A stretch of DNA of 61,812 bases, taken from the IMG/VR virus record IMGVR_UViG_3300050821_007079, positions 1 to 61,812 of that record; one strand, written 5' to 3'. The notes under the pieces were generated by a model. That model made no database searches. It saw nothing but the letters and a program-made list of their open reading frames with translations, and was not told the DNA's origin. The position numbers and the translations under genes were made by a program. Below are positions 41,630 to 57,121 of this stretch, in pieces (the stretch's first letter is position 1; every line of letters starts with the position of its first letter). The stretch is from a virus.

Positions 41630-41824
41630 ATGGAGACAATAATTATTGGAGGTGTGCGGTTCCGGTTCATGCAGTTGGAACACTGGGCGGATGTGGAAGT
41701 AGGTGAGGTAACACCTAACCTGAACGACGGCTGCTGGTATCCGGGTGAGCCGGACGCCAACACCTACTTCAGTGTGGTGATGTACTGCAACATGCAGAAA
41801 GATCTATTCGACGAGGAGGAGTGA
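41630..41824 (+). CDS. Mini-protein with QKDLF tail, 64 aa
   Basis: METIIIGGVRFRFMQLEHW, then a C-terminal MQKDLFDEEE. The start is uncertain: a GTG 12 bp upstream and a short alternative ORF from 41590 also exist. The end fits the Q-x-x-L-F family with an acidic cap. Confidence 0.55.
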   Translation: METIIIGGVRFRFMQLEHWADVEVGEVTPNLNDGCWYPGEPDANTYFSVVMYCNMQKDLFDEEE

Positions 41825-41827
41825 TCC

Positions 41828-42085
41828 GTGTATCAAACGAAGATTCAGAAATCAATGGTGGTCAGTCGTGGTCGTGCGCTGGCTAAGATGAACGGCAGCA
41901 AGCGAGGTTACAACGGGAGAGCAATTCATGACTGCGCGCAACCGAGCACGCCAGCGCAGGCCACAGCGCGTACGAACGGTTTCGATAAATGGGACGACAT
42001 ACCGCTTGAACGAGAGCTTTCTGCAAGCGAAGGCATCGCAGACGTTCGACAACGACTTGGAATGGATCGGTTGTATCGGGAGTAA
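41828..42085 (+). CDS. Possible overlapping gene, 85 aa
   Basis: The GTG start has a strong SD (GGAGG, 8 nt). It overlaps the QADVF gene by 158 bp in another frame, and both frames look protein-like. A shorter GTGA-coupled peptide from 41821 is an alternative. No motif or family. Confidence 0.4.
   Translation: MYQTKIQKSMVVSRGRALAKMNGSKRGYNGRAIHDCAQPSTPAQATARTNGFDKWDDIPLERELSASEGIADVRQRLGMDRLYRE
41925..41937 (+). repeat. TGACTGCGC motif at a gene start
   Basis: TTCATGACTGCGC, whose ATG is the start codon of the QADVF gene (MTA...). Confidence 0.7.
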
Positions 42086-42155
42086 GGACAGTATGCTCTA
42101 CGACCAGACACTGGCGTGGAGCGCGATGCAGGCGGATGTGTTTTTCACTGACTAG
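41928..42155 (+). CDS. Arg-rich mini-protein with QADVF tail, 75 aa
   Basis: SD GGGAGA, 8 nt. The Arg-rich head (ARNRARQRRPQRVR) suggests nucleic-acid contact. The end AMQADVFFTD is close to QADMF of DNA polymerase III alpha. It is a good candidate clamp ligand. Confidence 0.7.
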   Translation: MTARNRARQRRPQRVRTVSINGTTYRLNESFLQAKASQTFDNDLEWIGCIGSKDSMLYDQTLAWSAMQADVFFTD

Positions 42156-42201
42156 AGCATGGCTTGCGGGCCTGGGACCCGCAAGCCGGCGGGAGACAAA
42201 C

Positions 42202-42342
42202 ATGGACGAAGACTCAAACGAGATCTTGGAGAAGTTCGAGACATTCAAGAAGCTCTGCGACTGGACCGAGCCCACGATGATTCAGTGGGCGGCGTATCTC
42301 GAACACACGCAGCCGGTTACAACGGTTGTAACACTGCACTAG
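42202..42342 (+). CDS. Small helical protein, 46 aa
   Basis: Acidic helical N terminus (DEDSNEILEKFETFKKL), SD GGGAGA. It ends VTTVVTLH because site 5 forms its 3' end. No Q-x-x-L-F tail. Confidence 0.6.
   Translation: MDEDSNEILEKFETFKKLCDWTEPTMIQWAAYLEHTQPVTTVVTLH
42317..42331. promoter_or_regulatory. TTACAA-N3-TTGTAA site 5 (3' end of a gene)
   Basis: TTACAACGGTTGTAA encodes VTTVVT just before the stop, upstream of the next gene's SD. Confidence 0.75.
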
Positions 42343-42350
42343 GAGGAGGA

Positions 42351-42476
42351 ATGAACATCGACAAGGTAATGGGTAATTGCTGGATAGCATACAGCATTGG
42401 GTTGTATGCCACGGGGCATTGGATCGCTGGACTGGTGGCCAATGCGTTCGCACTTCTACTACTGATAGGAAACTAA
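42351..42476 (+). CDS. Small membrane protein, 41 aa
   Basis: Strong purine-rich SD (AGGAGGAGGA) directly before the ATG. One or two hydrophobic segments (CWIAYSIGLYATGHWIAGLV, FALLLLIG). Function unknown. Confidence 0.65.
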   Translation: MNIDKVMGNCWIAYSIGLYATGHWIAGLVANAFALLLLIGN

Positions 42477-42480
42477 AGTC

Positions 42481-43020: not shown

Positions 43021-43115
43021 CAGCGTTCTGGTCTGTGTTCGCCGCGCTGGTATCCTTCTGGGTACTGGCCGGCGTGGGCGTGGAGTTGGCACGTGACTAC
43101 CTCTTCGAAGAGTAG
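43017..43115 (+). CDS. Single-span membrane mini-protein, 32 aa
   Basis: ATGA overlap with the coiled-coil gene. One hydrophobic span (FWSVFAALVSFWVLAGVGV), ending RDYLFEE, which resembles the family tail without Gln. Confidence 0.6.
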   Translation: MTAFWSVFAALVSFWVLAGVGVELARDYLFEE

Positions 43116-43287
43116 AAACGCGTACAACGATGGGAGTGATAGCAAAAGATATAACGAGCCCCTCAGTCACTCCCAGTATGCCGACCATACTACCTGGAAG
43201 GAGCATTTGGATACGGAGGAGAGGACTACCAACTTATACTGGAATTGTTTGCAGGCTAATCTTTTCAACACGAGGGATAGGACATGA
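43093..43287 (+). CDS. Mini-protein with QANLF tail, 64 aa
   Basis: GTG start with GGAG SD, 8 nt, overlapping the previous gene. Ser/Asn/Thr/His-rich body, then NLYWNCLQANLFNTRDRT. The stop overlaps the next start (ATGA). Confidence 0.65.
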   Translation: MTTSSKSRNAYNDGSDSKRYNEPLSHSQYADHTTWKEHLDTEERTTNLYWNCLQANLFNTRDRT

Positions 43288-43973
43288 ACGTTTTGAATCG
43301 CGGGTTTCTTCTTGGGCTTCTATTCGTGACTGCGCTGGCGTGGTGCGTGCAGGCAATGGCGTGCGACTGCACACAACCTGCCAACTATGGCAATCCAGCA
43401 TGTAAGCAAATCATCACGCAGGCACTTAACGGAGCGAGCAATGTCAATGCGACAGGCGGTAATGGAGGCCAGGGAGGATCAGGAGGCAATGCGGCAAGCC
43501 GAGCTGTGTCGCGATCTGATTCTAGCAGCAACTCAGAGTCGAGCGCGCGAGGTGGCAACGCAAGGGCTGATGCGAGTAACGCAGGTAATACGCAATCGTC
43601 AGTATATGCTGTGGAGCGATCGGCACCGCCGGTGGGACCTGGTGTTATAGCTCCCAACGGCTGTGGTGCAGGTGCGCAGGGTGGCGGCAGCAATACCCGC
43701 GGCGCGATGATGGCCGGGTTCGCATGGACGACCGACGAGTGTTATGCGTTTATTCTCGCGCAGTCGTTCCAGGCTATTGGTGACCGCACCTCGGCGTGCG
43801 AGATCCTGCTCACGACCAACGCAGCCAAGCGTGCAATCAAACGCGGGGCAACATTCAAGCAATGCGTTACAACGGTTGTAACGAGAGAGCCAGTGCCTGA
43901 ACTACCAGCAACAGAGAGGATGTACACCCGTGCCCAAGTCGACACCATCGTCCGTAAAGCCGTCGCTAAATAA
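43284..43973 (+). CDS. Exported Gly/Ser/Asn-rich protein, 229 aa
   Basis: Signal peptide at residues 1-26 (ending AMA-CDC), a long Gly/Ser/Asn-rich middle, then a Cys-containing C-terminal region (TTDECYAFILAQSFQAIGDR). It is probably periplasmic or cell-surface. It carries one copy each of the two dispersed DNA motifs. Early expression suggests host-envelope interference or superinfection exclusion; that is inference. Confidence 0.7.
   Translation: MNVLNRGFLLGLLFVTALAWCVQAMACDCTQPANYGNPACKQIITQALNGASNVNATGGNGGQGGSGGNAASRAVSRSDSSSNSESSARGGNARADASNAGNTQSSVYAVERSAPPVGPGVIAPNGCGAGAQGGGSNTRGAMMAGFAWTTDECYAFILAQSFQAIGDRTSACEILLTTNAAKRAIKRGATFKQCVTTVVTREPVPELPATERMYTRAQVDTIVRKAVAK
43323..43335 (+). 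repeat. TGACTGCGC motif (in a signal-peptide coding region)
   Basis: TTCGTGACTGCGC, in frame as FVTAL within the signal peptide. Confidence 0.7.
43867..43881. promoter_or_regulatory. TTACAA-N3-TTGTAA site 6 (intragenic)
   Basis: TTACAACGGTTGTAA, in frame as VTTVVT, near the 3' end of the exported-protein gene. Confidence 0.75.
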
Positions 43974-44145
43974 ATATCGGCGGTGCGTGGTTGGCCGTGA
44001 GGGTATCCATCGTTGGTCGCCGCAGTGGCATCGACTAAAAACTATATGGCTGCGGCTGCGCTGGCTCTTTCCTCCGGAGACTACCTATGGGCAACACATT
44101 TGGGACGGGGTCGCGTATGACCGTCAATACTGCCTCTTCAACTAG
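43930..44145 (+). CDS. Mini-protein with QYCLF tail, 71 aa
   Basis: GTG start overlapping the previous gene by 44 bp (a later GTG is possible). Trp/Arg-rich (HRWSPQWHRLKTIWLRLRW), ending YDRQYCLFN. Confidence 0.6.
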   Translation: MPKSTPSSVKPSLNKYRRCVVGREGIHRWSPQWHRLKTIWLRLRWLFPPETTYGQHIWDGVAYDRQYCLFN

Positions 44146-44308
44146 GGGAAGTAACTACTGGATCCAGCGTCAGAGGGAGCGTGATGCGCAGCAGTTCTGG
44201 CAGCAGTGCTGGATGGACGTGGTGGCGGTCGAGGACTGGGTAATGGAACTACCTGGGTCCTCGACTTATGCCTCACCGTTCAACATGCAAGGGTGTGTGT
44301 TTCAATGA
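44087..44308 (+). CDS. Mini-protein with QGCVF tail, 73 aa
   Basis: SD CGGAGA before ATG 44087. Gln/Trp-rich centre (YWIQRQRERDAQQFWQQCW), ending NMQGCVFQ. Overlaps the previous gene by 59 bp. Confidence 0.65.
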   Translation: MGNTFGTGSRMTVNTASSTRGSNYWIQRQRERDAQQFWQQCWMDVVAVEDWVMELPGSSTYASPFNMQGCVFQ

Positions 44309-44514
44309 AGAGAACATACAAACCAATTCCCACGTTCAACGTTGCGCGCGGGCCCGACCACGTAAGTCCCAATGCCTGTTGGGCGAGATACGACCGGGCC
44401 GACTACAACGAGGGTATGTGGCTCGACTATGCAGAGTGGCATCGGCAGTTCCACGGTAAGGGCAAGAAGGAAGAGATAGCATGGAAGCATTTCCAGGGGA
44501 ATCTATTCTCATGA
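44305..44514 (+). CDS. Mini-protein with QGNLF tail, 69 aa
   Basis: ATGA overlaps at both ends. Contains RGPDHVSPNACWARYDRADY and GMWLDYAEWHRQFHGKGKK; ends WKHFQGNLFS. Confidence 0.7.
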   Translation: MKRTYKPIPTFNVARGPDHVSPNACWARYDRADYNEGMWLDYAEWHRQFHGKGKKEEIAWKHFQGNLFS

Positions 44515-44723
44515 AACAATCCAACAAGGCGTCTCTTATAGGGCTTCAACAGCACTGGGTCAACGTACGTGCGGGTATGCCACTAGGAGATGAAGACCAT
44601 TCGGAGGTTGCGTGGTCCTCGCTTCTGGTCCCAATAGATGAAGTCACGTGGGGACAAGTGCCTAAGGAAGCGGACCCCGATGGTGACGAACCCTGCATCG
44701 AGCAGCACATGGTGTTCAGATGA
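44511..44723 (+). CDS. Mini-protein with QHMVF tail, 70 aa
   Basis: ATGA-coupled. Acidic middle (MPLGDEDHSEVAW, KEADPDGDEP), ends CIEQHMVFR. Confidence 0.7.
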   Translation: MKQSNKASLIGLQQHWVNVRAGMPLGDEDHSEVAWSSLLVPIDEVTWGQVPKEADPDGDEPCIEQHMVFR

Positions 44724-44740: not shown

Positions 44741-45016
44741 ATGAGACTTAAACGATGGCGCGTGGTTAACGGCCACGGCTTCAAATACGCACAGCTTGAT
44801 GGTAATGGATACCGGGCGAAGGCAGGGAGGGATGGGATCATCTGTTACAACTGCGGTGTGTGGACAGTACATCCACGGAGGGATGAGTTGGTGGATCAGA
44901 AGATTAACCAGAACACACTGTCGCAATGTCCGATGTTCCATATGGACCTGTTCGGTGGGCCGATGTTCATGAGCAAGGATCTGAAGGATCAGATCCCGCG
45001 AAGGAGGGGAAGGTGA
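44741..45016 (+). CDS. Cys-containing protein, 91 aa
   Basis: SD AAAGGTG. It carries CYNCG and a later QCPMFHMDLFGG, a possible half zinc site, and a basic tail. The motif-like HMDLF is internal and lacks Gln. GTGA overlap with the next gene. Confidence 0.6.
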   Translation: MRLKRWRVVNGHGFKYAQLDGNGYRAKAGRDGIICYNCGVWTVHPRRDELVDQKINQNTLSQCPMFHMDLFGGPMFMSKDLKDQIPRRRGR

Positions 45017-45195
45017 AGCTAACACGATCACAACTCCATGCGGTTGTCGAGTGTGCGGTAGTAGAAGGGTATAGCCGCATGACTCTCAATGACAGTATAT
45101 ATTCTCCAGACTGGAACGGCCAGTGTTGGAACTTGTTTTCCGAGGACGTCGAATTACTCAAGACGTGGCTGTCCTGGTGGAGGAAGATCAAATGA
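45013..45195 (+). CDS. Mini-protein with QCWNLF element, 60 aa
   Basis: GTG start (GTGA overlap). Contains SPDWNGQCWNLFSED, a one-residue-longer variant of the motif, followed by a Trp-rich tail (LLKTWLSWWRKIK). Confidence 0.6.
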   Translation: MKLTRSQLHAVVECAVVEGYSRMTLNDSIYSPDWNGQCWNLFSEDVELLKTWLSWWRKIK

Positions 45196-45449
45196 AAACA
45201 CCAGCATGGTATTACAACGAGAACGGGCATCGGTGGCGTAAGTTGAAGGCTGGCGAAGCTAGGGATCCCCGTGCTGTACGCGGCTGTACGTGGTGTGGAT
45301 GCACATCACGTCTCTCTGCGCGCACATACAAGTCGAGGGTGCGGTACACGTTGTTTGTCTGTCTTGGCCGGCAGTCAATGCTGTTCCCCGGTAAGGGCAC
45401 TACGGTTGGCGGCTGGTCGCAGCCGAGGTTCTGGAAGTCATTTTCATGA
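45192..45449 (+). CDS. Cys-pair protein with internal QSMLF, 85 aa
   Basis: ATGA overlap. CTWCGC near residue 32 and C-x-G-R-QSMLF-P near residue 60; ends FWKSFS. Perhaps a zinc-binding relative of the mini-protein family. Confidence 0.6.
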   Translation: MKTPAWYYNENGHRWRKLKAGEARDPRAVRGCTWCGCTSRLSARTYKSRVRYTLFVCLGRQSMLFPGKGTTVGGWSQPRFWKSFS

Positions 45450-45455: not shown

Positions 45456-45709
45456 GCACAGCATCGGCAGCAGGCTTGACGATCCAATCAGATCCGGGTG
45501 AAAGCCCAACGGAGGTAATCAGCTCTTATATAAGAGAGTTAGTTGCGGCAGGTCACGAAATCACGGGAACTCATCGCTGCCGCAACTGTCATACAGAGTT
45601 CAGGCACTACATGCCGATCGTAGGGTCGGGTGTGCAGATCTTCTCTGACTTCGAGGACGGAGTGCAGTGTCCGCACAGACAGATGAACGTGCACGGAGGT
45701 GAGTCGTGA
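45446..45709 (+). CDS. Small zinc-finger-like protein, 87 aa
   Basis: ATGA overlap. CRNCHTEF and a distant QCPH suggest a zinc site. Helical N-terminal half (TEVISSYIRELVAAGHEI). No terminal motif; QIFSDF is internal. Confidence 0.6.
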   Translation: MTARTASAAGLTIQSDPGESPTEVISSYIRELVAAGHEITGTHRCRNCHTEFRHYMPIVGSGVQIFSDFEDGVQCPHRQMNVHGGES

Positions 45710-45813
45710 TCTGGTATCGGCACATAGACTGGCAGGAGAGCGAGGTGTGGGTGAGTACGCCCTGGCTTAACAATGAAGCAATGCAGTACTGCCTGTTCGG
45801 AGATTGGCCATGA
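45706..45813 (+). CDS. Trp-rich mini-protein with QYCLF tail, 35 aa
   Basis: GTG start (GTGA overlap). IWYRHIDWQESEVWVSTPW, then EAMQYCLFGDWP. Stop overlaps the next start. Confidence 0.7.
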   Translation: MIWYRHIDWQESEVWVSTPWLNNEAMQYCLFGDWP

Positions 45814-45977
45814 GATGGGGAAGCAGCGCACCAATAGAGGACGGAGATATAGGCTCAGAGGTAGTGCCGGAGAACTACAGCTCGTACTGGCCAGAGTGGG
45901 CCAGGGAGCACGAGATACACGTGTGGCCGGGAACGTGGAACTTGCAGTGGATGCTGTTCGAGAGGGAGAGGAAATGA
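45810..45977 (+). CDS. Trp-rich mini-protein with QWMLF tail, 55 aa
   Basis: ATGA overlaps on both sides. Acidic head, then YWPEWAREHEIHVWPGTW and NLQWMLFERERK. Confidence 0.7.
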   Translation: MRWGSSAPIEDGDIGSEVVPENYSSYWPEWAREHEIHVWPGTWNLQWMLFERERK

Positions 45978-46081
45978 ACGGCTGGATGGATTGGGAGGCA
46001 CAGGCGTTTTGGTTAGCCGAGGGTGAGGGCTGGCTGAGGTGGTTCGATATGCAGTGGTGTATGTGGGATGACGAGGATTAA
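45974..46081 (+). CDS. Trp-rich mini-protein with QWCMW tail, 35 aa
   Basis: ATGA overlap. Seven Trp in 35 residues; ends DMQWCMWDDED, a Phe-to-Trp variant of the motif. Confidence 0.65.
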   Translation: MNGWMDWEAQAFWLAEGEGWLRWFDMQWCMWDDED

Positions 46082-46407: not shown

Positions 46408-46881
46408 ATGGTGAATGAAGTCAAGATCGACGGTCAGGTAGCGGAGCGCAAGACATTCAAGATCAAGATCGGTGCGCCGACGAACTCGGAGCAAGTGTAT
46501 CTGGAGGGCGAGGGCATCGCATGCGGCGACCATATCGTAGCCCACGCACTGCCGGTGTACCGACAGAAGGACTACCCCGTCTACAAGACCCGCAAGAACG
46601 GGCCGTACTGCGTGAGCTTCATTGCGAGTGGGCTGCGCGCGTCGGGCACCAATCAGAAGCTGGTGTTCTCCAAGCTCGAGGCTGCCGCGGAGTTTGGCAT
46701 GAGTGTTGCCAGTCTCTACGCGCTGCTTGGGTTCCCCATGTCCGAGGAAGATCCGCGCAAGGTACTCGAGTACGCCAAGGAGCATCGCGAGGAGTTGTAT
46801 GAACCCCTGTGCAATCTCGCGGTGCAGTATGGAGGGGTGCTGGTCACGCCGGAGACTGCCGCCAAGGCCGATGGAGAGTAG
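46408..46881 (+). CDS. Unknown protein, 157 aa
   Basis: The ATG at 46408 has SD AGGAGA; an in-frame ATG at 46354 would place site 7 inside the gene. The N-terminal half is beta-rich (KTFKIKIGAPTNSEQVYL), the C-terminal half helical (SKLEAAAEFGMSVASLYALL, PRKVLEYAKEHREEL). No family recognised. Confidence 0.7.
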   Translation: MVNEVKIDGQVAERKTFKIKIGAPTNSEQVYLEGEGIACGDHIVAHALPVYRQKDYPVYKTRKNGPYCVSFIASGLRASGTNQKLVFSKLEAAAEFGMSVASLYALLGFPMSEEDPRKVLEYAKEHREELYEPLCNLAVQYGGVLVTPETAAKADGE

Positions 46882-47041
46882 GGCCAATCTCGCGGAGATC
46901 GGTAGGGATGCGAAGGGTGGTCCGGTCTATATATTCCAGTGCTCACCTGAGTGGCAGGAGGCACCGATACATAGCCTAAAGGAGGAGCAGTACATTCACT
47001 TGGCGGATTGCCGCCAGTACTGCTTGTTCCTGCCGTCATGA
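46871..47041 (+). CDS. Mini-protein with QYCLF tail, 56 aa
   Basis: Overlaps the previous gene's end. PVYIFQCSPEWQEAPIHSL, then LADCRQYCLFLPS. Stop overlaps the next ATG. Confidence 0.7.
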   Translation: MESRANLAEIGRDAKGGPVYIFQCSPEWQEAPIHSLKEEQYIHLADCRQYCLFLPS

Positions 47042-47178
47042 GCAACGCCACTGCCTTCGACGATCTGGATGATATCAGCATGTGGCTGGATCATATCCCT
47101 GCCGACGAGGTGATGGACACGGCTGCGCTGCCGGCGTTCAAAGGAGGCATACCTGAACAGGTGTGTTTGTTCGAATGA
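47038..47178 (+). CDS. Acidic mini-protein with QVCLF tail, 46 aa
   Basis: ATGA overlaps at both ends. Asp-rich (FDDLDDISMWLDHIPADEV), ends PEQVCLFE. It could mimic DNA or a partner's acidic surface. Confidence 0.7.
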   Translation: MSNATAFDDLDDISMWLDHIPADEVMDTAALPAFKGGIPEQVCLFE

Positions 47179-47336
47179 GTGCGAACCCCTTTGTTTTACA
47201 TCAGTGGTACCACTGGGTGCTGACTCATGAGGAAAGTATGCAGACCATGCACTGGGAGGATGGCAGGTCAATAGTGGACTACGCTAATGTCTGGATGACT
47301 TGGCAGGCGAATCTCTTCAGCAATGAGGGCAAGTAA
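47175..47336 (+). CDS. Trp-rich mini-protein with QANLF tail, 53 aa
   Basis: HQWYHWVLTHEESMQTMHWEDG, then WMTWQANLFSNEGK. It resembles the next protein in layout (W-rich head, H/TWEDG, W, motif), so the two are likely duplicates. Confidence 0.75.
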   Translation: MSANPFVLHQWYHWVLTHEESMQTMHWEDGRSIVDYANVWMTWQANLFSNEGK

Positions 47337-47507
47337 ATGAACAGGCATTGGGAGTTCGACTCCTATATGTGGGCCCTAACCAGTGAGCAGGCAGTGCTTA
47401 AGTGGACATGGGAGGATGGTACAGAGTGGGGGCCGACAGCGAGGAGCGCCTCCACAGTTCAGGTGTGGAACACATTTCAGCTAAATCTGTTTAACAATGA
47501 GGTATAG
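47337..47507 (+). CDS. Trp-rich mini-protein with QLNLF tail, 56 aa
   Basis: Begins immediately after the previous stop. DSYMWALTSEQAVLKWTWEDG, then VWNTFQLNLFNNEV. QLNLF is identical to the clamp-binding motif of E. coli UmuC, the best single match in the set. Confidence 0.75.
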   Translation: MNRHWEFDSYMWALTSEQAVLKWTWEDGTEWGPTARSASTVQVWNTFQLNLFNNEV

Positions 47508-47511: not shown

Positions 47512-48567
47512 ATGCGAATCAGCAAAGCAATTAGTCTTCTGGTCACGGTCGTCGATGTAGCCTTGGAGACAGGAGAGTACGGCTGCGTCCGCCTTCTCTC
47601 AGGTCCTGGCATTGGTAAGTCCAGTGCAGTGCGCGAGGCGGCGAGGATCCTGTCCAAGAAGCATGGCAAGAAGTGTGGGGTGAAACTCGTACGGCTGTGC
47701 GAGGTGGAGCAGCCCGACGTCAAGGGGTTCGGGATGGCGGATATCCCCAACCGCAAGATGGTGTTCACTGATCCGTACTGGGCGATTGACCCGGAGAAGG
47801 ACGGAGAGTTTGGGTTTGTGTTCTTCGACGAGCAGCCCCAGTCAGCGGATGACGTCAACAAGGTGTGGGCGGAGATCGCAGACCAGAGGCGCGTGGGTGA
47901 GTACAACATCCCTGACGGATGGGTGGTGGTGTCAGCCGGCAACCGCGAGGGCGATCGGTCCGGTGTGCGCAAGACGATGGCATTCATTCAGAACAGGATC
48001 GTGGATATCTTTGTCGACGGACACAAGGATGACCTGGTGGACTGGCAGGAGAAGAACAACATTCACCACACGATCATCTCTTACACCGAGGCATTTCCGG
48101 GAGAGGTGTTGGCAGACAGGGTTCCCGACAAGCCGGGTCCGTTCTGCACGCCGCGCTCGCTGTGCCGCCTGAGTCCGTTCATCGACCGCATGAGCATTGA
48201 GATGTTCACGGAGTATGCGGCCGGTGCGATTGGTGAGGGTGCGGCGGCCAAGTTCGTGGCGCATCTGCGCGTGCATGATGAGCTGCCGACCTACGCACAG
48301 ATAGTCAAGGCACCGAAGACGACCAAGGTCCCGGAGCGGCCGGACGCGGTGTACGCGACGGTCAGGATGGTTGCACACAACGTGGACAAGGACACGGCTG
48401 TGCAGGCGTTCGAGTACCTGGGCAGGCTGCCGCCTGAGTTCCAGGCGACCGCCCTGCGGCATGCCGTGCGCCGGACCCCGCAGATCGTGCAGCACCCGGA
48501 GTTCGCAACGTGGCTGCGGTCGAACAAGAAGTTGCTGGAGGCGGCGAACCTGCTGGATAAGAAATGA
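47512..48567 (+). CDS. MoxR-like AAA+ ATPase, 351 aa
   Basis: Walker A GPGIGKSS at residues 31-38 and Walker B GFVFFDEQ near 103, with an Arg-finger-like region (SAGNREGDRSGVRK). MoxR ATPases work with VWA-domain proteins as chaperone-like remodellers. The VWA partner is encoded four genes downstream (50191-51405). The stop overlaps the next start (ATGA). Confidence 0.85.
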   Translation: MRISKAISLLVTVVDVALETGEYGCVRLLSGPGIGKSSAVREAARILSKKHGKKCGVKLVRLCEVEQPDVKGFGMADIPNRKMVFTDPYWAIDPEKDGEFGFVFFDEQPQSADDVNKVWAEIADQRRVGEYNIPDGWVVVSAGNREGDRSGVRKTMAFIQNRIVDIFVDGHKDDLVDWQEKNNIHHTIISYTEAFPGEVLADRVPDKPGPFCTPRSLCRLSPFIDRMSIEMFTEYAAGAIGEGAAAKFVAHLRVHDELPTYAQIVKAPKTTKVPERPDAVYATVRMVAHNVDKDTAVQAFEYLGRLPPEFQATALRHAVRRTPQIVQHPEFATWLRSNKKLLEAANLLDKK

Positions 48568-49736
48568 GTGACTTCGACTTACAATCTGTCCTAAGAGGAC
48601 TGCTCAATGATGACCCAGTCGTGGATGACACACAGGTCGTGGAACAAGTGGCTGAAGCAAGTCCGCCGTGTGGCGACCTCGGAGGCGGAGCACTACCAGC
48701 GAGCGAACAAGAGGAACCGGCTCTGGGTGGAGAGGCGGACTTGCCAGGCGATGCTGTTCCTCTAATCGTGACTGCGCCAGCCGACGAGCCTGACGATGTT
48801 ACAACCCTTGTAATGAACTATCCAGCATTCACTGAGGAGAACCTCGCGGAGACCATGGATATCCGCAACTACGCGACACTGTGCAAGCTCAAGGTGCGCA
48901 AGTGGGGCGGGCGCGTCAAGGACAAGAAAGCAGCGAGGCAATCGGCGAGGGACATGGGGGCAGTGGATGGTGCCTACTCGACCTACAAGCGCTTGTTCGC
49001 CGGTGTGGAGGACCGGCTGCGCGCGGTCAACAGTGTCCTGGATGCGGCTCGCACGCGCCACTACGAGTTGACACTGCCGTGGTCAGTGACAGGGAGCGAC
49101 GACAAGGGCAGGCGCGATGGACCGCGGCTCATGGCGAACACTCTGTTCATGGAGTATGTGACAGAGATGGGGCAGGCCAAGCAGCAGAAGGATCAAGTGC
49201 TGGCCGAACTTGAGCGGGCGTACCCGTCCATGTTGGTGGAGGCCAAGAAGAACTTAGGCAATGGGTTTGACATCAAACAGTATCCAACATCTGCCGAGAT
49301 CAAGGACTACTTTGACCTGGAGTTTGAGTTCATGCCGGTGCCGCTGGGTGTCGACTACAAGGGCCTGCCGCGCCAGCAGATAGGAGCGCTGGCGAACAAG
49401 CTCAACAAGTCAATGCAGCAATGCATGGAGAATGCTCTGCGCGACGTGTGGGCCAGGCTGTACTCACGGGTGCAGAAGATGCAGGAGCGGCTCAGCAACC
49501 CCAAGCATATCTTTCACGACACTCTCGTGAGTAACATGCGCGAGTTGGCTGCGACGGTCGAGCATCTGAACGCAACGAAGGACCCCAGGATTGAGAACAT
49601 CCGTAAACAAATAGAGGCAAACCTATGCAGGTTCGAGGCAGAGGATCTAAGAAAGGATCTGACAAAGCGGGCACTGACCGCACAACTCGCGGGGGAAATC
49701 TTGCGGGATATGGAGGCAAGCGTCTCCAGGCCCTAG
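48564..49736 (+). CDS. Unknown MoxR/VWA-module protein, 390 aa
   Basis: The first ~80 residues are acidic, Pro/Ala-rich linker sequence that overprints a mini-gene (48607-48765). The rest is helical and charged (CKLKVRKWGGRVKDKKAARQ, ELAATVEHLNATKD). The start is uncertain: the ATG at 48564 is coupled to the MoxR stop, but a GTG at 48768 and an ATG at 48813 are in frame. Its position between MoxR and VWA genes suggests a shared complex. Confidence 0.65.
   Translation: MSDFDLQSVLRGLLNDDPVVDDTQVVEQVAEASPPCGDLGGGALPASEQEEPALGGEADLPGDAVPLIVTAPADEPDDVTTLVMNYPAFTEENLAETMDIRNYATLCKLKVRKWGGRVKDKKAARQSARDMGAVDGAYSTYKRLFAGVEDRLRAVNSVLDAARTRHYELTLPWSVTGSDDKGRRDGPRLMANTLFMEYVTEMGQAKQQKDQVLAELERAYPSMLVEAKKNLGNGFDIKQYPTSAEIKDYFDLEFEFMPVPLGVDYKGLPRQQIGALANKLNKSMQQCMENALRDVWARLYSRVQKMQERLSNPKHIFHDTLVSNMRELAATVEHLNATKDPRIENIRKQIEANLCRFEAEDLRKDLTKRALTAQLAGEILRDMEASVSRP
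48607..48765 (+). CDS. Overprinted mini-protein with QAMLF tail, 52 aa
   Basis: It lies wholly inside the 390-aa gene in another frame. SD AAGAGGA sits 7 nt before ATG. The body is Trp/Arg-rich (SWNKWLKQVRR, KRNRLWVERRTC) and ends CQAMLFL. The tail and SD argue that it is real. The stop is followed at once by a TGACTGCGC copy. Confidence 0.55.
   Translation: MMTQSWMTHRSWNKWLKQVRRVATSEAEHYQRANKRNRLWVERRTCQAMLFL
48766..48778 (+). repeat. TGACTGCGC motif
   Basis: TCGTGACTGCGCC follows the stop of the QAMLF ORF and is in frame as VTAP in the 390-aa gene. The context is like the copy at 92-104. Confidence 0.7.
48799..48813. promoter_or_regulatory. TTACAA-N3-TTGTAA site 8
   Basis: TTACAACCCTTGTAA, whose last A begins an in-frame ATG of the 390-aa gene. 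It lies 33 bp after a TGACTGCGC copy. Confidence 0.75.
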
Positions 49737-49957
49737 TCAAGGCTGTGTTCGCTGAAGGTCCGGAAGGGTACGTATGTTCGAACTGCGGTGGAGACTGCGT
49801 GACTTTCCACGGGACTGTGCAGTGGAGTATCCGCAAGAACGACTTCGAGGTCATGGAAGTCGGCGACTCGGAATACTGCGGGACTTGTGAAGATGGTTGC
49901 GGCACGGACTGGGTTCACTTTAACCAATGGGAACTATTCACAGATGAAGACACTTAA
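49625..49957 (+). CDS. Zinc-binding-like protein with QWELF tail, 110 aa
   Basis: Gly/Lys/Arg-rich head, CSNCGGDC and CGTCEDGCG Cys clusters, and the tail NQWELFTDEDT. The start overlaps the previous gene by 112 bp; a GTG at 49743 is an alternative. Confidence 0.6.
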   Translation: MQVRGRGSKKGSDKAGTDRTTRGGNLAGYGGKRLQALVKAVFAEGPEGYVCSNCGGDCVTFHGTVQWSIRKNDFEVMEVGDSEYCGTCEDGCGTDWVHFNQWELFTDEDT

Positions 49958-50198
49958 ACAAGGCACCATCAAACGTCTGCATGTCAACCGACATGTGATG
50001 GGGGCCAATCGTAAGACAGGCGCGGACGACTACGCCCTGACGATACAGACGAGCAAGGGACCTATACGAACCAACGCAGCCTGGGTCGAGGGCAAGTGCA
50101 GGTTCGTGCAGGCGGGCGGTATCCACAATATCAAGCCGCTCAAGTGCGGGGCGCGGGCGTGGATCGAGACAAGAGCAGAGGTAAACTACAATGAGTAA
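49944..50198 (+). CDS. Unknown basic protein, 84 aa
   Basis: Beta-rich basic protein (KQGTIKRLHVNRHVMGANRK, YALTIQTSKGPIRTNAAW, KCRFVQAGGIHNI). It overlaps both neighbours slightly. No family recognised. Confidence 0.65.
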   Translation: MKTLKQGTIKRLHVNRHVMGANRKTGADDYALTIQTSKGPIRTNAAWVEGKCRFVQAGGIHNIKPLKCGARAWIETRAEVNYNE

Positions 50199-51405
50199 TG
50201 ACAGCAGGCATCCAGCATTCACGGAGATCAAAACCGCGATGCTTCTACACGTCCCGTTCTTCGCGAGTCTGTTACTAGATATCATGAAGATCTGGATCGG
50301 GGACCTGATTGCCAAGGGGGTGATGCCCCCTGGCATGAAGGCGACAATGGCAACCGATGGTAAGACAATCTGGATGGATGAGCAGTTCATTAAGGAACTC
50401 CCCATAGAGAACTCGGTCTTCGCGGTATGCCATGAGATCGGCCACACCATGTTCGAGCACATGGCGCGGGCTAAGCGATACGTGGACCTGGGGTTCGATG
50501 GGCAGAAGTTCATCCCTCTGCTGTGGAACATCGCGGCCGACTTCTATATTAATGATCTATTGGTCAAGTCGGGGGTAGGAAAGATCAAACTTGACGCAGA
50601 TGGTAAGCCGGAGTGGTTGCTCGACCCTAAATATACTTGCCAGATGGCAGTGGAGGATATCTACCGGGACCTGATAAAGAACGGCATGCCGAAGTCCTGC
50701 ACGGGCGACGGGGACGGGCAGATGGACGGGCATATCTTCGACCTGAGCGATATCTCGGACGCAGAGTTGAAGCGGGCGATTGCGACCGCGGCAGACACTG
50801 CCAAGGCAATGGGCAAGCTGCCGGCTGAACTCGAGCGGTTCGCAGAGGAGATCCTGGCGGCCCAAGTTACATGGCAGGAACTGCTCCGTACAACCATTGT
50901 AACGACCACTGCACGCGATACGAACTCCTGGGCGAGGCCACACCGGCGCAGGCTGGTAGGGCAAGGGGTGTACCTGGCGCGGCCAGCCTCGTACGGCTGT
51001 GACACGATCGTGTGGATCTGGGACACCAGCGGTAGTATCGGGCAGGCAGAGATGAACATCTTCGGCAGTGAGTGCCAGGATATCATCCGGACCTGCCACC
51101 CGGAGCGGGTGATCTTGATCGGTTGTGACAGCCGTATTGCCAGTGTCGAGGAGTTCACTGGCGACCAGGAGATCGACTGGAGCAAGACAGAGGTGAAGGG
51201 GGGTGGCGGGACTGACTTCCGGCCACCGTTCGACTGGCTCGAGGAACAGGGGATCATTCCGGATGCGTGTATCTACTTCACGGACTTGCAAGGGCCGGGG
51301 CCGAGCGACGAGCCGGGCTATCCAGTCATATGGTGCAGTACAACACCAGAACTCAAGGGCCCAACTGGTACCACGATCTATGTGGACCTTGAACCCGCCA
51401 AGTAA
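50191..51405 (+). CDS. VWA-like putative metallopeptidase (DUF2201-like), 404 aa
   Basis: Zinc motif HEIGHTMFEH at residues 81-90. The C-terminal VWA-like domain has MIDAS DTSGS near residue 278 and GGGGTDFRP. The family pairs with MoxR-type ATPases, and a MoxR gene lies 1.6 kb upstream. The complex may remodel or cleave host proteins. Site 9 lies mid-gene. Confidence 0.85.
   Translation: MSNDSRHPAFTEIKTAMLLHVPFFASLLLDIMKIWIGDLIAKGVMPPGMKATMATDGKTIWMDEQFIKELPIENSVFAVCHEIGHTMFEHMARAKRYVDLGFDGQKFIPLLWNIAADFYINDLLVKSGVGKIKLDADGKPEWLLDPKYTCQMAVEDIYRDLIKNGMPKSCTGDGDGQMDGHIFDLSDISDAELKRAIATAADTAKAMGKLPAELERFAEEILAAQVTWQELLRTTIVTTTARDTNSWARPHRRRLVGQGVYLARPASYGCDTIVWIWDTSGSIGQAEMNIFGSECQDIIRTCHPERVILIGCDSRIASVEEFTGDQEIDWSKTEVKGGGGTDFRPPFDWLEEQGIIPDACIYFTDLQGPGPSDEPGYPVIWCSTTPELKGPTGTTIYVDLEPAK
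50888..50902. promoter_or_regulatory. TTACAA-N3-TTGTAA site 9 (variant)
   Basis: GTACAACCATTGTAA, first base changed, in frame as TTIVT within the VWA gene. Confidence 0.65.
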
Positions 51406-51553
51406 GGACAACTACTGCTCGCAGCAGTATTATGAAGGGGACGGCTGCTGTGGACTGGATGTCTACTCAACGCGCTCCGGCGAGTGGGAGTTTCTGCAAG
51501 AGGACGGCGGTGGGTATTTCACTGGGCAGTCGATGCTGTTTGAGGAGGGGTAG
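51380..51553 (+). CDS. Mini-protein with QSMLF tail, 57 aa
   Basis: Overlaps the VWA gene by 26 bp. Tyr/Gly/Cys-rich (NYCSQQYYEGDGCCGLDVY), ends YFTGQSMLFEEG. Its stop abuts the next GTG. Confidence 0.65.
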   Translation: MWTLNPPSKDNYCSQQYYEGDGCCGLDVYSTRSGEWEFLQEDGGGYFTGQSMLFEEG

Positions 51554-51753
51554 TGAACATCTACGAGCAGCAGCATATAGACTGGCACACCTGGAAACCT
51601 TGGCGGAACTGTAACAGCCCCGCACAGTGGCAGGAGCTACAGACAACGGACGATGGTAGCCTGCGTTGGCTGTGGACGCCTAACTACGAGCACCTGTCAG
51701 GACCCGCCGGATTGCATCAGCAGTGGTTTCTATTTCTCGATGTTCCTTTTTAG
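51553..51753 (+). CDS. Trp-rich mini-protein with QWFLF tail, 66 aa
   Basis: GTG behind GAGGAGGGG. IDWHTWKPWRNCNSPAQWQELQ, DDGSLRWLW, then LHQQWFLFLDVPF. Last gene before a terminator. Confidence 0.7.
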   Translation: MNIYEQQHIDWHTWKPWRNCNSPAQWQELQTTDDGSLRWLWTPNYEHLSGPAGLHQQWFLFLDVPF

Positions 51754-51839: not shown

Positions 51840-52433
51840 ATGCAAATGTCAGCAGCAGAACTCGCTCAGCTCAACCAGGCCGGCGGATGGATCGCGATTG
51901 CGAGCCCCATCCCCACGCCTCCGGTCGTGACTGCGCCACCCCCGCCTCCTCCCGCCATCGGTCCCGGCACCATCTATGATAATGGCAAGCTCATGTGGCC
52001 GGGCGACTGGGACGGATCATCTCTCAAGGTGAACTACGCGGACGCCACCAAGATCCCCGGCAAGGTGGTCGCCTCCATGACCTCTATCGCCCCCTGGGCT
52101 TACTGGCTACCGTACGTGCTGCATCTGCAGACGTCGCAGTTCACCAACTTGATCCTGAGGATCAAGCCGAGTGTCGCCGGACAGAAGTTCAGCGCAGCCG
52201 CGTACACGTCCGTGCTGAACCCGGACGGGACCTGGAAGAACGACGTGGTTACCGGGGGCGTCTCGAGTTTGCTTCCCTATGCATCCAATCCGGATGCAGA
52301 TGGTGTGGTCACATACACCATCCCGCTGTCAGCCCTGAAGGCAGTGAATATCGACCTCTACAAGATCATCGTGCAGGACCAGACGGGCCTCACTGGTGAT
52401 GTGTGGTGTGTCGTATATGCGGCATTCATGTAA
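51840..52433 (+). CDS. Unknown beta-rich protein with Pro linker, 197 aa
   Basis: A short N-terminal helix (SAAELAQLNQAGGW), a Pro-rich linker carrying a TGACTGCGC copy, then a beta-sandwich-like domain (TIYDNGKLMWPGDWDGSS, LILRIKPSVAGQKF, YKIIVQDQTG). It may be a carbohydrate-binding or virion-decorating protein. SD GAGG. Confidence 0.65.
   Translation: MQMSAAELAQLNQAGGWIAIASPIPTPPVVTAPPPPPPAIGPGTIYDNGKLMWPGDWDGSSLKVNYADATKIPGKVVASMTSIAPWAYWLPYVLHLQTSQFTNLILRIKPSVAGQKFSAAAYTSVLNPDGTWKNDVVTGGVSSLLPYASNPDADGVVTYTIPLSALKAVNIDLYKIIVQDQTGLTGDVWCVVYAAFM
51925..51937 (+). repeat. TGACTGCGC motif (intragenic)
   Basis: TCGTGACTGCGCC, in frame as VVTAP in the Pro-rich linker of the 197-aa protein. 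Confidence 0.7.
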
Positions 52434-53033: not shown

Positions 53034-54860
53034 ATGCAGTTGATTACTCTGGATGTCGAAACTTTCTACGGCCCCGACTACACGCTGAGCAAGATGACCA
53101 CTGAGGATTACGTGCGTGATCCCCGCTTTGAGGTTATCCTGCTGAGTGTTCAAGTCGGCAAGGGAACACCCAAATGGTTCAGTGGGACGATGAAACAGAC
53201 GGGCGAATGGCTCAAGCAGTTCGACTTGGCGAACCAGGCGATATTGGGCCACCATATGGCCTTCGATGGATTAGTCCTGCAGCATCACTTCGGAATCGTT
53301 CCCAAGATGTATTTCGATACCCGGCTCATGGCCCAGGCGAAGTACAAACCCTATACGGGCTCTGCATCGTTGAAAAACTGTATGACGTATGCTGGCCTCG
53401 GCCTGGAGAAGGGGGACGAAGTCCACAACATGTTCGGCCGCAGCAGAGCCTCTTTGTCCCGTGAAGAACTAGAGAAGTACGCCGGCTACTGCTGCAACGA
53501 CGTCGCCTGTACCGCCGCTCTCTTTGCGCAGCTGATGCTCGACTACCCGCGGGACGAACTCAAGGTCATCGACCTGACCCTGCGGATGTACCTGGAGCCC
53601 CAATTTGAACTCGACACGCAGGTCCTCGCCGAGCACCTGCAGGAGGTCCGAGCCAAGAAAGAGACTATCCTGCAGCGGGTGTTCTCGGTCTGCTCGCAAG
53701 AGGATCTAATGTCGAACCAGAAGTTCGCGAAACTTCTGCAGGGGTTCGGTGTCGAGCCTCCCATGAAGACTAGCCCGACGACGGGCAAGCCGACATTCGC
53801 ATTTGCCAAGGCGGATGCCGCTTGGAAAGATTTTGTGGAGGAGAACGAAAGCGATGAACTCATCTCGGCGCTCTGCGCCGCCCGAACTGGAGTTAAATCT
53901 ACACTGGAAGAAACCCGCACGCAGAGACTGCTTACGATGGGGAATACCAGTCCGCTTCTTCGAGTCCCACTACTCTACTATGCTGCTCATACTGGACGGT
54001 ATGGTGGAACCGAGAAGATCAACCTGCAGAACCTTCCTCAGCCTCATAAGTCCCGTATTCGCTTCGCTCTTAGGGCCCCAGCTGGATCTGTGGTTGTGGG
54101 TGCCGACCTCTCCCAAATCGAGGCCCGACTCGCTGCTTGGCTTGCAGGTCAGAGCAGCCTCGTCACTGCTTTCCGAGACGGCGTTGATGTTTACTCGGCA
54201 TTTGCTTCTAAGCTCTACGGAAGAACTATTACACGGGCGGACAAAAGAGAGAGATTCCTTGCTAAGACAGCTGTACTCGGGCTTCAATACGGCATGGGAC
54301 CAGTTAAGTACATCGGGACTTGCCGGGCCCAAGAAAACATTAAAGTCGATCTCGAAGAAGCCACAAAGGTCGTCTACATCTACCGCGACACCTACTCGAT
54401 GATTCCGGACCTGTGGCGCACGCTCGACCGGATGCTCGACATCATGGCAGAACCGGGTGCCCGCGCGACCCTGGGGCCGCTGGTGTTCATGCATCAGAAG
54501 GTCAAGCTGCCGAACGGGATGGAGATCGTTTACCCGAACCTGGAGAAAACCGATGCGGGGTACCAGTATACATTCGGGAGAAGTCTTAGAAATCTGTGGG
54601 GTGGCTCTACGCTAGAGAATATCTGCCAGGCGCTCGCGCGGATCGTGATTACGGAGAATATGCTGCGCATTGAAAAGGAACTAAAACTGCGGCCACTACT
54701 CCAAGTACACGACGAACTGGTGTACTGCATCGCTAAGGGCCGGGAACAAGAAATCACCGAAGCCCTTAATAAAATTATGACTGCGCCACCTAAGTGGGCC
54801 AGCAGCCTTCCATTAGACGTAGAGGTGCACTGTGGGGCGAACTTTGGCGAACTCAAGTAG
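53034..54860 (+). CDS. Family A DNA polymerase with 3'-5' exonuclease, 608 aa
   Basis: Exonuclease motifs: LDVETF (D7, E9), HHMAFDGL and YCCNDVACT. Polymerase motif A GADLSQIEAR near residue 356, motif B RERFLAKTAVLGLQYG near 405 and motif C QVHDELVY near 559. There is no 5'-nuclease domain. It replicates the phage DNA with the primase-helicase. The C terminus carries a TGACTGCGC copy. Confidence 0.95.
   Translation: MQLITLDVETFYGPDYTLSKMTTEDYVRDPRFEVILLSVQVGKGTPKWFSGTMKQTGEWLKQFDLANQAILGHHMAFDGLVLQHHFGIVPKMYFDTRLMAQAKYKPYTGSASLKNCMTYAGLGLEKGDEVHNMFGRSRASLSREELEKYAGYCCNDVACTAALFAQLMLDYPRDELKVIDLTLRMYLEPQFELDTQVLAEHLQEVRAKKETILQRVFSVCSQEDLMSNQKFAKLLQGFGVEPPMKTSPTTGKPTFAFAKADAAWKDFVEENESDELISALCAARTGVKSTLEETRTQRLLTMGNTSPLLRVPLLYYAAHTGRYGGTEKINLQNLPQPHKSRIRFALRAPAGSVVVGADLSQIEARLAAWLAGQSSLVTAFRDGVDVYSAFASKLYGRTITRADKRERFLAKTAVLGLQYGMGPVKYIGTCRAQENIKVDLEEATKVVYIYRDTYSMIPDLWRTLDRMLDIMAEPGARATLGPLVFMHQKVKLPNGMEIVYPNLEKTDAGYQYTFGRSLRNLWGGSTLENICQALARIVITENMLRIEKELKLRPLLQVHDELVYCIAKGREQEITEALNKIMTAPPKWASSLPLDVEVHCGANFGELK
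54776..54788 (+). repeat. TGACTGCGC motif (intragenic)
   Basis: TTATGACTGCGCC, in frame as IMTAP near the polymerase C terminus. Confidence 0.65.
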
Positions 54861-55335: not shown

Positions 55336-56000
55336 GCCGCGAGTTCGCCTGGAGTTTCAGCGCTCTAACTCGATACGAGAATTGCCCGAAGCAGTACTAC
55401 CACGTCAACGTCATCAAGGATGTGAAGGATGAAGACTCATCGTTCTCGGCGGATGGGCAGATTATTCATAAGGGCATGTATGAGCGAATTACAAAGGGAA
55501 AACCCCTCCCTCTCAACTATCGCTATCTGGAGTCGACGGCAGCTAAATTTGTGGGGCTCCCTGGAGATACATCCGGTGAACTCAAATTCGCCATGGCTCG
55601 TGATTTCCAGCCGACGAGTTATTTCGATCAATCAGTCTTCGTTCGAGTGGTTGTGGACCTTCTTGTCGTGGCGGGAAAGCGAGCTATTATCATTGATTGG
55701 AAAACAGGTAAGCCGCAGCCATGGTCGATTCAGCTGGACCTTACTGCGGCTGTTCTCTCGACTCACCTGCCGGAGATTGAAACATTCGATCTTGCGTACG
55801 TGTGGCTTAAGGATACGAAGATACCCCCCACTAGAAGCCGTCGAACGAAGTCATCTATGGTAGAGGTATGGAACAATCTCCTGCCGCGCGTCGCCAAGAT
55901 CGAAGCGGCAATCAAGACGACCGACTTCCCGGCGAAGCCGTCGGGGCTCTGCAAGTACTGCCCGGTGAGATCGTGCCCGCACAACACAAACGACAGATGA
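55332..56000 (+). CDS. PD-(D/E)XK (RecB/Cas4-like) nuclease, 222 aa
   Basis: FSFSALTRYENCPKQYY-type N-terminal motif (here SFSALTRYENCPKQYY), nuclease core IIIDWKTGKP, and a C-terminal Cys cluster CKYCPVRSCP with the early Cys, as in iron-sulphur Cas4-like nucleases. The GTG at 55332 (GTGA overlap) is preferred over an upstream TTG. Role: DNA-end processing in phage recombination. Confidence 0.85.
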   Translation: MSREFAWSFSALTRYENCPKQYYHVNVIKDVKDEDSSFSADGQIIHKGMYERITKGKPLPLNYRYLESTAAKFVGLPGDTSGELKFAMARDFQPTSYFDQSVFVRVVVDLLVVAGKRAIIIDWKTGKPQPWSIQLDLTAAVLSTHLPEIETFDLAYVWLKDTKIPPTRSRRTKSSMVEVWNNLLPRVAKIEAAIKTTDFPAKPSGLCKYCPVRSCPHNTNDR

Positions 56001-56074
56001 CGTGGACGGCGTGGATACTGCTGTTCGAATGGGAAGCTGTCGACAACGCGTCGCAACGGAGCCTATGGCGGTGA
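55997..56074 (+). CDS. Mini-protein with QRSLW tail, 25 aa
   Basis: ATGA overlap. TAWILLFEWEAVDNASQRSLWR; the smallest member of the set. The next gene begins inside its stop (GTGA). Confidence 0.55.
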   Translation: MTWTAWILLFEWEAVDNASQRSLWR

Positions 56075-56199
56075 GTATCTCCCAACTGTTTTCTACAGAG
56101 CGGTACTGGCCGACCGACATGCGGCTAACTAACGGCCGGAGCCTCCACTGGAGTGGGGCGGTTGATATCGTAAATTTCCAGTTGAGTTTGTCCTGGTGA
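56071..56199 (+). CDS. Mini-protein with QLSLSW tail, 42 aa
   Basis: GTG start. Begins SISQLFSTERYW and ends VNFQLSLSW. QLSL-S-W is close to the hexameric clamp motif of Hda (QLSLPL), and a second QLF lies at the N terminus. Confidence 0.6.
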   Translation: MSISQLFSTERYWPTDMRLTNGRSLHWSGAVDIVNFQLSLSW

Positions 56200-56291
56200 A
56201 TACCAAATATAGCGCTTGGCTTGTGCATACGAATCAGGATGAGCAGAAAGACTGCTATTCCTGGCAGATGCAAGGGTGTGTGTTCGAATGA
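56196..56291 (+). CDS. Mini-protein with QGCVF tail, 31 aa
   Basis: GTG start (GTGA overlap). Ends SWQMQGCVFE, the same tail as the protein at 44087. Confidence 0.65.
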   Translation: MNTKYSAWLVHTNQDEQKDCYSWQMQGCVFE

Positions 56292-56587
56292 CCCCCGAAG
56301 GCAAAGTAAAATCAAAAGTGAAGGAACTTCTCAACCTCCACGTTGCCTATCAGTTCTGGCCGGTACAGACTGGCATGGGATCACGGACACTGGACTGCCT
56401 TGGCTGTCACAGCGGCCGGTTCTTCTCGATAGAGACGAAAGCAAAAGGTAAACACATGACCGAACAACAGGCATCGATCGCTGACCGCATGCTGCGCTCC
56501 GGCGCGCGGGTCTTCGAAATTGACGGGGACCTGTCGGAACTCGAGTATTGGCTGCGGCTCGAGCCGCAGGTTTGCGTGTTTTCCTGA
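56288..56587 (+). CDS. VRR-NUC-type nuclease with QVCVF tail, 99 aa
   Basis: TPEGKVKSKVKELLN, SRTLDCLGCHSGRFFSIETKAKGK and TEQQASIADRMLRSG match the stand-alone VRR-NUC fold (D...E-x-K). The terminal PQVCVFS is the mini-protein motif on an enzyme, which suggests that the motif is a docking tag. ATGA-coupled. Confidence 0.85.
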   Translation: MTPEGKVKSKVKELLNLHVAYQFWPVQTGMGSRTLDCLGCHSGRFFSIETKAKGKHMTEQQASIADRMLRSGARVFEIDGDLSELEYWLRLEPQVCVFS

Positions 56588-56706
56588 TGGCTACCTTCGG
56601 CGCACAGTTTATATGGGGCGTTCCCGATCATTATCCTGGTGTGCCAGAGAATGAACTTTGTGACTGGATGTACGCCAAGCGCTACCAATGGATGCTGTTT
56701 TTATGA
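56587..56706 (+). CDS. Mini-protein with QWMLF tail, 39 aa
   Basis: ATFGAQFIWGVPDHYPGVPE, then AKRYQWMLFL. Starts at the previous stop and ends in ATGA. Confidence 0.65.
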   Translation: MATFGAQFIWGVPDHYPGVPENELCDWMYAKRYQWMLFL

Positions 56707-57008
56707 GTCTCCTAAAAAACCTATTTGGTGCAGCGACCCCTCCGCACCTGGTCACACAGGGACAGTCTCCGGCAATGACGGCCACCCAAGTCGCAATGCA
56801 GCAACAAGCATGGGCCGGGCAGCTAGGGCAGGCGCAAAGCCAATACCAGAACCAGCTCAATCAGCAGATGCAACAGATGGTTGGCGCTGCCATGCCTATA
56901 CCGACCTTCAACGAACACGTGCCCGTATGGGACGAGGGCGGATACGAGCCCTGGCTGGGCAAACCGACGCATCGGACCGACTACTGCCAGCGATGCATGT
57001 TTCTGTGA
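56703..57008 (+). CDS. Gln-rich protein with QRCMF tail, 101 aa
   Basis: A short hydrophobic head (SLLKNLFGAA), a Gln-rich coil (AGQLGQAQSQYQNQLNQQMQ) and a tail ending DYCQRCMFL. The N-terminal pattern resembles small virion proteins, but the operon context is early. Confidence 0.65.
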   Translation: MSLLKNLFGAATPPHLVTQGQSPAMTATQVAMQQQAWAGQLGQAQSQYQNQLNQQMQQMVGAAMPIPTFNEHVPVWDEGGYEPWLGKPTHRTDYCQRCMFL

Positions 57009-57121
57009 GCGGATTCCTTACATACCAACCAGACGACGAGTTCGAACAGGCCTGGCGAGAATGCACGACAACTCAGACGATGTTCAACTTTCGCTGGATG
57101 CAGTGGTGCCTGTTCGAATGA
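57005..57121 (+). CDS. Mini-protein with QWCLF tail, 38 aa
   Basis: GTG start (GTGA overlap). YQPDDEFEQAWRECTTTQTM, then FRWMQWCLFE. Stop overlaps the next start. Confidence 0.7.
   Translation: MSGFLTYQPDDEFEQAWRECTTTQTMFNFRWMQWCLFE

Follow-up and report, generated by a model that had tools for sequence, protein, structure and literature searches.

The window analysed here is the complete 61,812 bp virus record IMGVR_UViG_3300050821_007079, which carries in two regions a swarm of small genes whose products end in a common short sequence, Q-x-x-[LMV]-F or a close variant (hereafter the tail). When counted strictly, as open reading frames (ORFs) of at least 30 aa with Q..[LMV]F no more than seven residues before the stop, 23 tails were found on the plus strand between 41600 and 57130 (antisense 0; dinucleotide shuffles, mean 0.17, maximum 1) and four on the minus strand between 36700 and 39250 (antisense 0; shuffle mean 0), while the remaining 40 kb yielded 0–1 per strand. 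The two sense strands together therefore carry 27 tails, against none antisense and approximately 0.2 in shuffled sequence. Two of the 23 were discarded as out-of-frame ORFs within conserved genes, namely 53174–53464 (QQSLF) in the polymerase gene and 48607–48765 (QAMLF) in a gene of 390 aa, leaving 21 on the plus strand and four on the minus strand, 25 in all. Four further tails have Trp or Tyr at position 5 (QWCMW, QRSLW, QWNLW and QACMY) and five are looser variants (QCPMF and QSMLF, lying 16–26 residues from the end, QCWNLF, and the hexamer-like QLSLSW and QLSFDF), which brings the total to 34. The original prediction, that many small genes share a C-terminal tail, is thus borne out, and its overall figure of about 34 is matched once these variants are counted; the tails on the plus strand are indeed numerous, although the 26 that it placed there include a few variants.

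When all 20 residues were scanned at each position in the window, position 1 (P1) proved to be only Gln, P4 was Leu, Met or Val but never Ile, and P5 was Phe with a few Trp or Tyr and never Leu. A scan for X..[LMV]F over every first residue returned 27 for Gln and 0–2 for each of the others, and spacings one residue longer or shorter showed no enrichment in the window. All six Leu codons (CTG, CTA, TTG, CTC, CTT and TTA) occur in the tails, as do both codons for Gln and both for Phe, and selection therefore acts on the protein, as had been argued earlier from the same synonymous variation. The genes are closely packed in chains in which the stop often overlaps the next start (ATGA), for example at 56.2–57.1 kb on the plus strand and 38.5–39.1 kb on the minus strand. 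Many tails stand one residue ahead of such a stop, and the distance from tail to stop, most commonly 1, ranges from 0 to 26 residues.

The plus-strand series begins with a 64 aa mini-protein at 41630–41824 (QKDLF-DEEE), which starts at TGATGG directly after an in-frame QLCLF remnant. The remnant belongs to the preceding gene of 284 aa (40746–41630), which has a TGA at 41600 and whose in-frame continuation, GRDAQLCLF with a stop at 41630, is an exact tail motif; this reads either as a recent nonsense change or as stop readthrough. Mini-proteins of 75 aa (41928–42155; QADVF-FTD) and 64 aa (43093–43287; QANLF-NTRDRT) follow, then one of uncertain start (43930–44145) ending RQYCLF-N, the sequence AYDRQYCLF being identical in the sister genome L004. 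Next are products of 73 aa (44087–44308; QGCVF-Q), with an ATGA overlap into the following gene, 69 aa (44305–44514; QGNLF-S, with QCNLF-A in the L004 orthologue) and 70 aa (44511–44723; QHMVF-R). The three genes after these carry looser forms: a CxxC-bearing protein of 91 aa (44741–45016) has QCPMF about 26 residues before its end, a 60 aa product (45013–45195) has QCWNLF, longer by one residue, and a second CxxC-bearing protein, of 85 aa (45192–45449), has an internal QSMLF about 20 residues before its end. A Trp-rich product of 35 aa (45706–45813; QYCLF-GDWP) has relatives in L004 and L006, and is followed by mini-proteins of 55 aa (45810–45977; QWMLF-ERERK) and 35 aa (45974–46081; QWCMW-DDED). 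Beyond an untailed protein of 157 aa (46408–46881), discussed below as a lineage marker and candidate partner, lie products of 56 aa (46871–47041; QYCLF-LPS), 46 aa (47038–47178; QVCLF-E), 53 aa (47175–47336; QANLF-SNEGK), which has orthologues in L004 and L006 and a paralogue adjoining it, and 56 aa (47337–47507; QLNLF-NNEV).

Further along the same strand are a zinc-ribbon-like (CxxC...CxxC) protein of uncertain start (49625–49957; QWELF-TDEDT) and mini-proteins of 57 aa (51380–51553; QSMLF-EEG) and 66 aa (51553–51753; QWFLF-LDVPF), the latter with a strong Shine–Dalgarno sequence, AGGAGG. The last chain comprises ORFs of 25 aa (55997–56074; QRSLW-R), of small size with the end QLSLSW (56065–56199) and of 31 aa (56196–56291; QGCVF-E), a VRR-NUC-type nuclease of 99 aa (56288–56587; QVCVFS), and products of 39 aa (56587–56706; QWMLF-L), 101 aa (56703–57008; QRCMF-L) and 38 aa (57005–57121; QWCLF-E). 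On the minus strand, mini-proteins lie at 39069–39155 (QWDLF-L), 38947–39087 (QWPLF-S), 38786–38950 (QWCMF-E), 38637–38789 (QWSLF-L) and 38476–38640 (the variant QACMY-D), together with a protein of 131 aa at 37897–38292 (QWNLW-HEYE) and, the least certain, a small ORF at 36917–37264 with QLSFDF close to its end. The tail is thus borne by short Trp-rich peptides, by CxxC-bearing zinc-ribbon-like proteins and by one nuclease; searches of Pfam and PHROGs gave no convincing family for the mini-proteins, the nuclease excepted.

The nuclease offers the clearest view of how a tail relates to the protein that carries it. Alignment of its orthologues shows the invariant residues D36, E49 and K51 of a PD-(D/E)xK-type core; Pfam VRR_NUC was matched in four of the seven aligned orthologues, but not in the window member itself; a profile search matches 4qbo, and the best fold match is the VRR_NUC structure 4qbn (template modelling scores 0.71/0.75, expect value (E) 4e-3). 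The protein belongs with the VRR-NUC nucleases. Among the aligned sequences only the two swarm members have the tail, as QVCVFS in the window and QISLFV in the sister; orthologues L005, L066, L067 and L072 stop at or near '...WLxLxP', before the tail position, and in L073, L075 and L077 short ends of unrelated sequence stand in its place. The AlphaFold2 model has a mean predicted local distance difference test (pLDDT) score of 88.6; the core scores in the 90s and confidence extends to residue 90, whereas the last nine residues have a mean of 63 and no secondary structure. These observations are direct evidence of a modular gain of the tail here (or of its loss elsewhere) and, as modelled, of its position outside the fold core of this protein, the one tail protein that modelled well. 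Placement of the motif inside a conserved fold core had been named beforehand as a result that would count against a docking tail, and in the nuclease the tail stands outside a complete fold.

The swarm is also present in three other IMG/VR contigs: 3300020579_000013, in which the polymerase is 75% identical and approximately 20–24 tails lie nearly all on a single strand; the 6.4 kb fragment 3300012944_000242; and 3300010343_000015, where several tails have Trp at P5 (QLNLW, QANLW and QLCLW). It is absent from 3300032322_001602, with a polymerase 50% identical, and from the searched loci of at least seven further relatives, including a Rhizobium phage and the Pseudomonas phages KPP25 and Rollin. 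The swarm therefore arose in, or was kept by, one lineage. A pattern scan (CAGNNNTGYYTGTTCNNATGA) of 2.9 million viral contigs in IMG/VR gave 74 loci and no other swarm, the pattern being of limited sensitivity. In L033, L037 and L041, marine relatives by their polymerase, single Q-x-C-L-F tails seemed to belong to out-of-frame ORFs. From one swarm genome to another, no relative could be detected for most bodies, which agrees with the earlier description of dissimilar bodies joined to a common tail; in the few orthologous families, the body drifts and the tail stays. The body of the 131 aa protein, for instance, is only 25% identical to its relative in 3300010343 (L161), yet the two end in QWNLW-HEYE and QWNLW-HEYY, respectively.

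The untailed 157 aa protein behaves differently, being 79–84% identical in the three other swarm contigs, where the surrounding small genes are almost unrelated. It occurs neither in five non-swarm relatives nor in GenBank phages, has no relative in Pfam, PHROGs or the PDB, and gave an unusable AlphaFold2 model (mean pLDDT 43). A palindromic, operator-like 17-mer, GTTACAAC[C/G][C/G]TTGTAAC, occurs in 11 copies in the window, all between 39.2 and 57.4 kb (at 39279, 39422, 40764, 41394, 42316, 43866, 46378, 48798, 50887, 53017 and 57339), and in eight, six and three copies in the other swarm contigs, with none in four non-swarm relatives; one copy lies upstream of the 157 aa gene in all four swarm contigs. 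This set looks like a lineage-specific regulon. A ribbon-helix-helix (CopG/Arc-like) protein encoded at 36572–36742 on the minus strand is 67% identical in the sister genome, and possibly regulates these sites.

The record has a 98 bp direct repeat at both ends, consistent with a complete circular assembly, contains no tRNA genes and, at the DNA level, is close to none of the GenBank phages; among named phages, Rhizobium phage RHph_TM3_14A and its relatives stand nearest (portal 50% and polymerase 34% identical). Its structural and packaging genes include a terminase, a portal/head-tail protein and a very large DarB-like structural protein. For replication it encodes a family-A DNA polymerase with exonuclease, an SNF2-type helicase, a DUF927 primase/helicase-like protein and a PD-(D/E)xK exonuclease. 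No sliding clamp was found among the scanned proteins. A MoxR-like ATPase (phrog_1297) is paired with a DUF2201 VWA/metallopeptidase-like protein (47512–48567 and 50191–51405), and the pair is kept in both swarm and non-swarm relatives. A GT-D-fold glycosyltransferase domain (PF08759, E 2e-19; 35564–36349, minus strand) adjoins the terminase, and a 15–24-mer repeat around ATCGTGACTGCGCC occurs at 85–108, 43317–43340, 48759–48782 and 51918–51941.

Known clamp-binding motifs (CBMs) of the bacterial sliding clamp follow Q-phi-x-[L/M]-[F/L] in pentameric or hexameric form, are often C-terminal, and are mostly flanked by negative charge or end in a free carboxyl group (PMC11139829). Transposases of many insertion sequence (IS) families grip the clamp through C-terminal Q-L-x-L-F tails (PMC4549789). 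Sixty-three tails from the four swarm genomes, a few embedded or alternate-frame ORFs among them, were pooled for comparison. P1 was Gln in 63/63, although the search pattern itself required it; P4 was Leu in 50, Val in seven and Met in six; P5 was Phe in 53 and Trp in ten. The residues after the motif are 31% acidic, as against 8% in the terminal residues of untailed ORFs (Fisher p ~1e-18), and QLSLSW and QLSFDF recall the known hexameric form. The PCNA-interacting protein box (Q-x-x-[I/L]-x-x-F-F) was rejected on spacing, the aromatic residue here being at +4 and not at +6/+7. P2 is chiefly Trp, Leu, Ala, Tyr or Gly and P3 is most often Cys (20), followed by Asn (11), Met (10), Ser (8) and Asp (4). 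The claim that the tail equals the DnaN-binding pentapeptide is thus supported in part: the tail closely resembles it at P1, P4 and P5, and CBMs at large in its acidic flanks and C-terminal placement, but often departs from the canonical form at P2. Because P2 is often Trp, P3 Cys and P5 sometimes Trp, we regard the tails as CBM-like rather than as canonical CBMs, a comparison made against the Escherichia coli form.

Our working hypothesis treats the tail as a short linear motif for docking, in which Q-x-x-[LMV]-[F/W] is succeeded either by acidic residues or by the C terminus. Since P1, P4 and P5 match, the flanks are acidic and the placement is terminal, its receptor is probably the pocket of the host clamp, DnaN. 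Several points weigh against this reading. P2, canonically aliphatic in CBMs though reported to tolerate substitution, is aliphatic (L, A, V, I or M) in only 23/63 tails and Trp in 16/63; Leu, which clamps accept at P5, never occurs there in the window, and no tail in the window is exactly QL[SD]LF; Val at P4 lies outside the canonical set, and Trp at P5, present in ten of the 63, weakens binding in the motif of E. coli Pol III alpha (PMC11139829). Moreover, a search of GTDB genomes with the 157 aa protein and a polymerase profile found no related locus that would point to a host, and the 157 aa protein itself offers an alternative partner.

Alternatively, some receptor other than DnaN might recognize the tail as a shared tag; the most plausible would be one encoded by the phage, which would gather the mini-proteins into a complex or deliver them to one. 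What makes the 157 aa protein a candidate is that it is better conserved than any other protein of the region, is found in every swarm contig and is absent from the five non-swarm relatives; in addition, the preference for Trp at P2 and Cys at P3 is unlike that of E. coli CBMs. Co-occurrence within one lineage proves little by itself, being expected of any lineage-specific gene, and the model of the 157 aa protein is too poor to reveal a peptide-binding site. As P1, P4, P5 and the acidic flanks already fit a known pocket, we consider such a receptor unlikely. It is more doubtful still that the motif has no docking role and simply forms the final strand or helix of a single Trp-rich mini-fold, much duplicated and very divergent. 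Some mini-proteins are indeed related (those starting at 47175 and 47337, and that at 45706 with members in L004 and L006) and, ahead of the Gln, share Trp at -4 and Met at -1; however, most bodies show no detectable relatedness, the stop follows the motif at anything from 0 to 26 residues, and the same tail occurs both on CxxC proteins and on a nuclease in which the fold is already complete before the tail begins and which is untailed in its non-swarm orthologues.

That approximately half of the tails stand one residue from the stop, and that many of these stops overlap the next start, could also indicate a degradation signal or a translation-coupling signal at the ends of overlapping genes. 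The use of all Leu codons and of both Phe and both Gln codons excludes a coupling signal in the RNA; a variable distance from the C terminus and acidic residues downstream are unsuited to a C-degron, the spread of 0–26 residues arguing instead for a pocket-binding motif; and the small genes of non-swarm relatives lack the tail. We consider an explanation of this kind very improbable. A compositional artefact of Trp-rich small ORFs would account for the few out-of-frame ORFs in the raw list (QQSLF in the polymerase gene and QAMLF in the 390 aa gene), but with 27 sense tails against none antisense, far above the shuffled expectation, and with the pattern replicated in three more contigs, a chance origin is refuted and retains a negligible probability.

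Returning to DnaN as the receptor, we infer that one phage lineage attached the tail to approximately 25–34 small, fast-evolving early-region proteins and kept it there, and that these proteins, the VRR-NUC nuclease included, would load onto host clamps through the hydrophobic pocket that binds Q-x-x-[L/M]-[F/L] tails. Host clamp users and replication proteins would then be crowded out and host replication slowed, and phage activities may be concentrated at replicating DNA. Because many distinct bodies are kept, one of them a nuclease, recruitment would be favoured at least as much as plain flooding of the clamp. There is perhaps an even chance that the host clamp serves as a general docking platform, for which dozens of unrelated early proteins, among them small orphans and at least one nuclease, each independently bear a clamp-binding tail that persists as their bodies turn over, the result being a whole set of effectors delivered to, and competing for, one hub.

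Clamp binding by individual proteins of phages or mobile elements is already known. The bacterial CBMs (QL[SD]LF of Dalrymple) resemble the tails in having Gln at 1, Leu or Met at 4 and Phe at 5, in being often C-terminal with an acidic flank or free carboxyl group, and in occurring on unrelated carriers; the phage tails differ in having mostly Trp, Tyr, Gly or Ala at P2, Cys, Asn or Met at P3, some Val at P4 and Trp at P5, and in numbering approximately 25–34 in a single genome. IS transposases similarly show mobile elements docking their own enzymes on the host clamp by a Q-L-x-L-F-like tail, with one tail per element, on the transposase (PMC4549789), rather than dozens of small orphan proteins. 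The Caulobacter toxin SocB, likened here by description only, is reported to block replication elongation by CBM-mediated binding of DnaN (PMC9690074), but is a single chromosomal toxin of a toxin–antitoxin pair. Gp168 of phage Twort is a phage protein aimed at the host clamp, yet it is a single protein that occupies the clamp's DNA channel rather than the CBM pocket (PMC11139829), to which the tail motif suggests that the present proteins are directed. Phage T4 gp33 and gp55 likewise use a short, hydrophobic motif at the C terminus to attach to a sliding clamp, although they are only two, their motif is LDFL (PMC9690074) and the clamp is the phage's own gp45. Searches of the open-access literature found no report of approximately 25–34 clamp-type tails in one small genome. 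So many tails suggest that this lineage commandeers a single host protein more extensively than has been described so far.

Even with another receptor, a tail common to approximately 25–34 unrelated proteins in one small genome would be unusual, and the receptor could be found by one pull-down. If the tails bind DnaN, no larger set of viral proteins that target one host hub by way of a common short motif would be known; it would be the bacterial equivalent of the numerous eukaryotic virus proteins that mimic motifs, and many small early genes annotated as 'hypothetical' would be explained at once. The nuclease would then illustrate cleanly how an existing protein gains a linear motif, and the swarm would provide a ready collection of natural peptides for the clamp pocket, a recognized antibacterial target.

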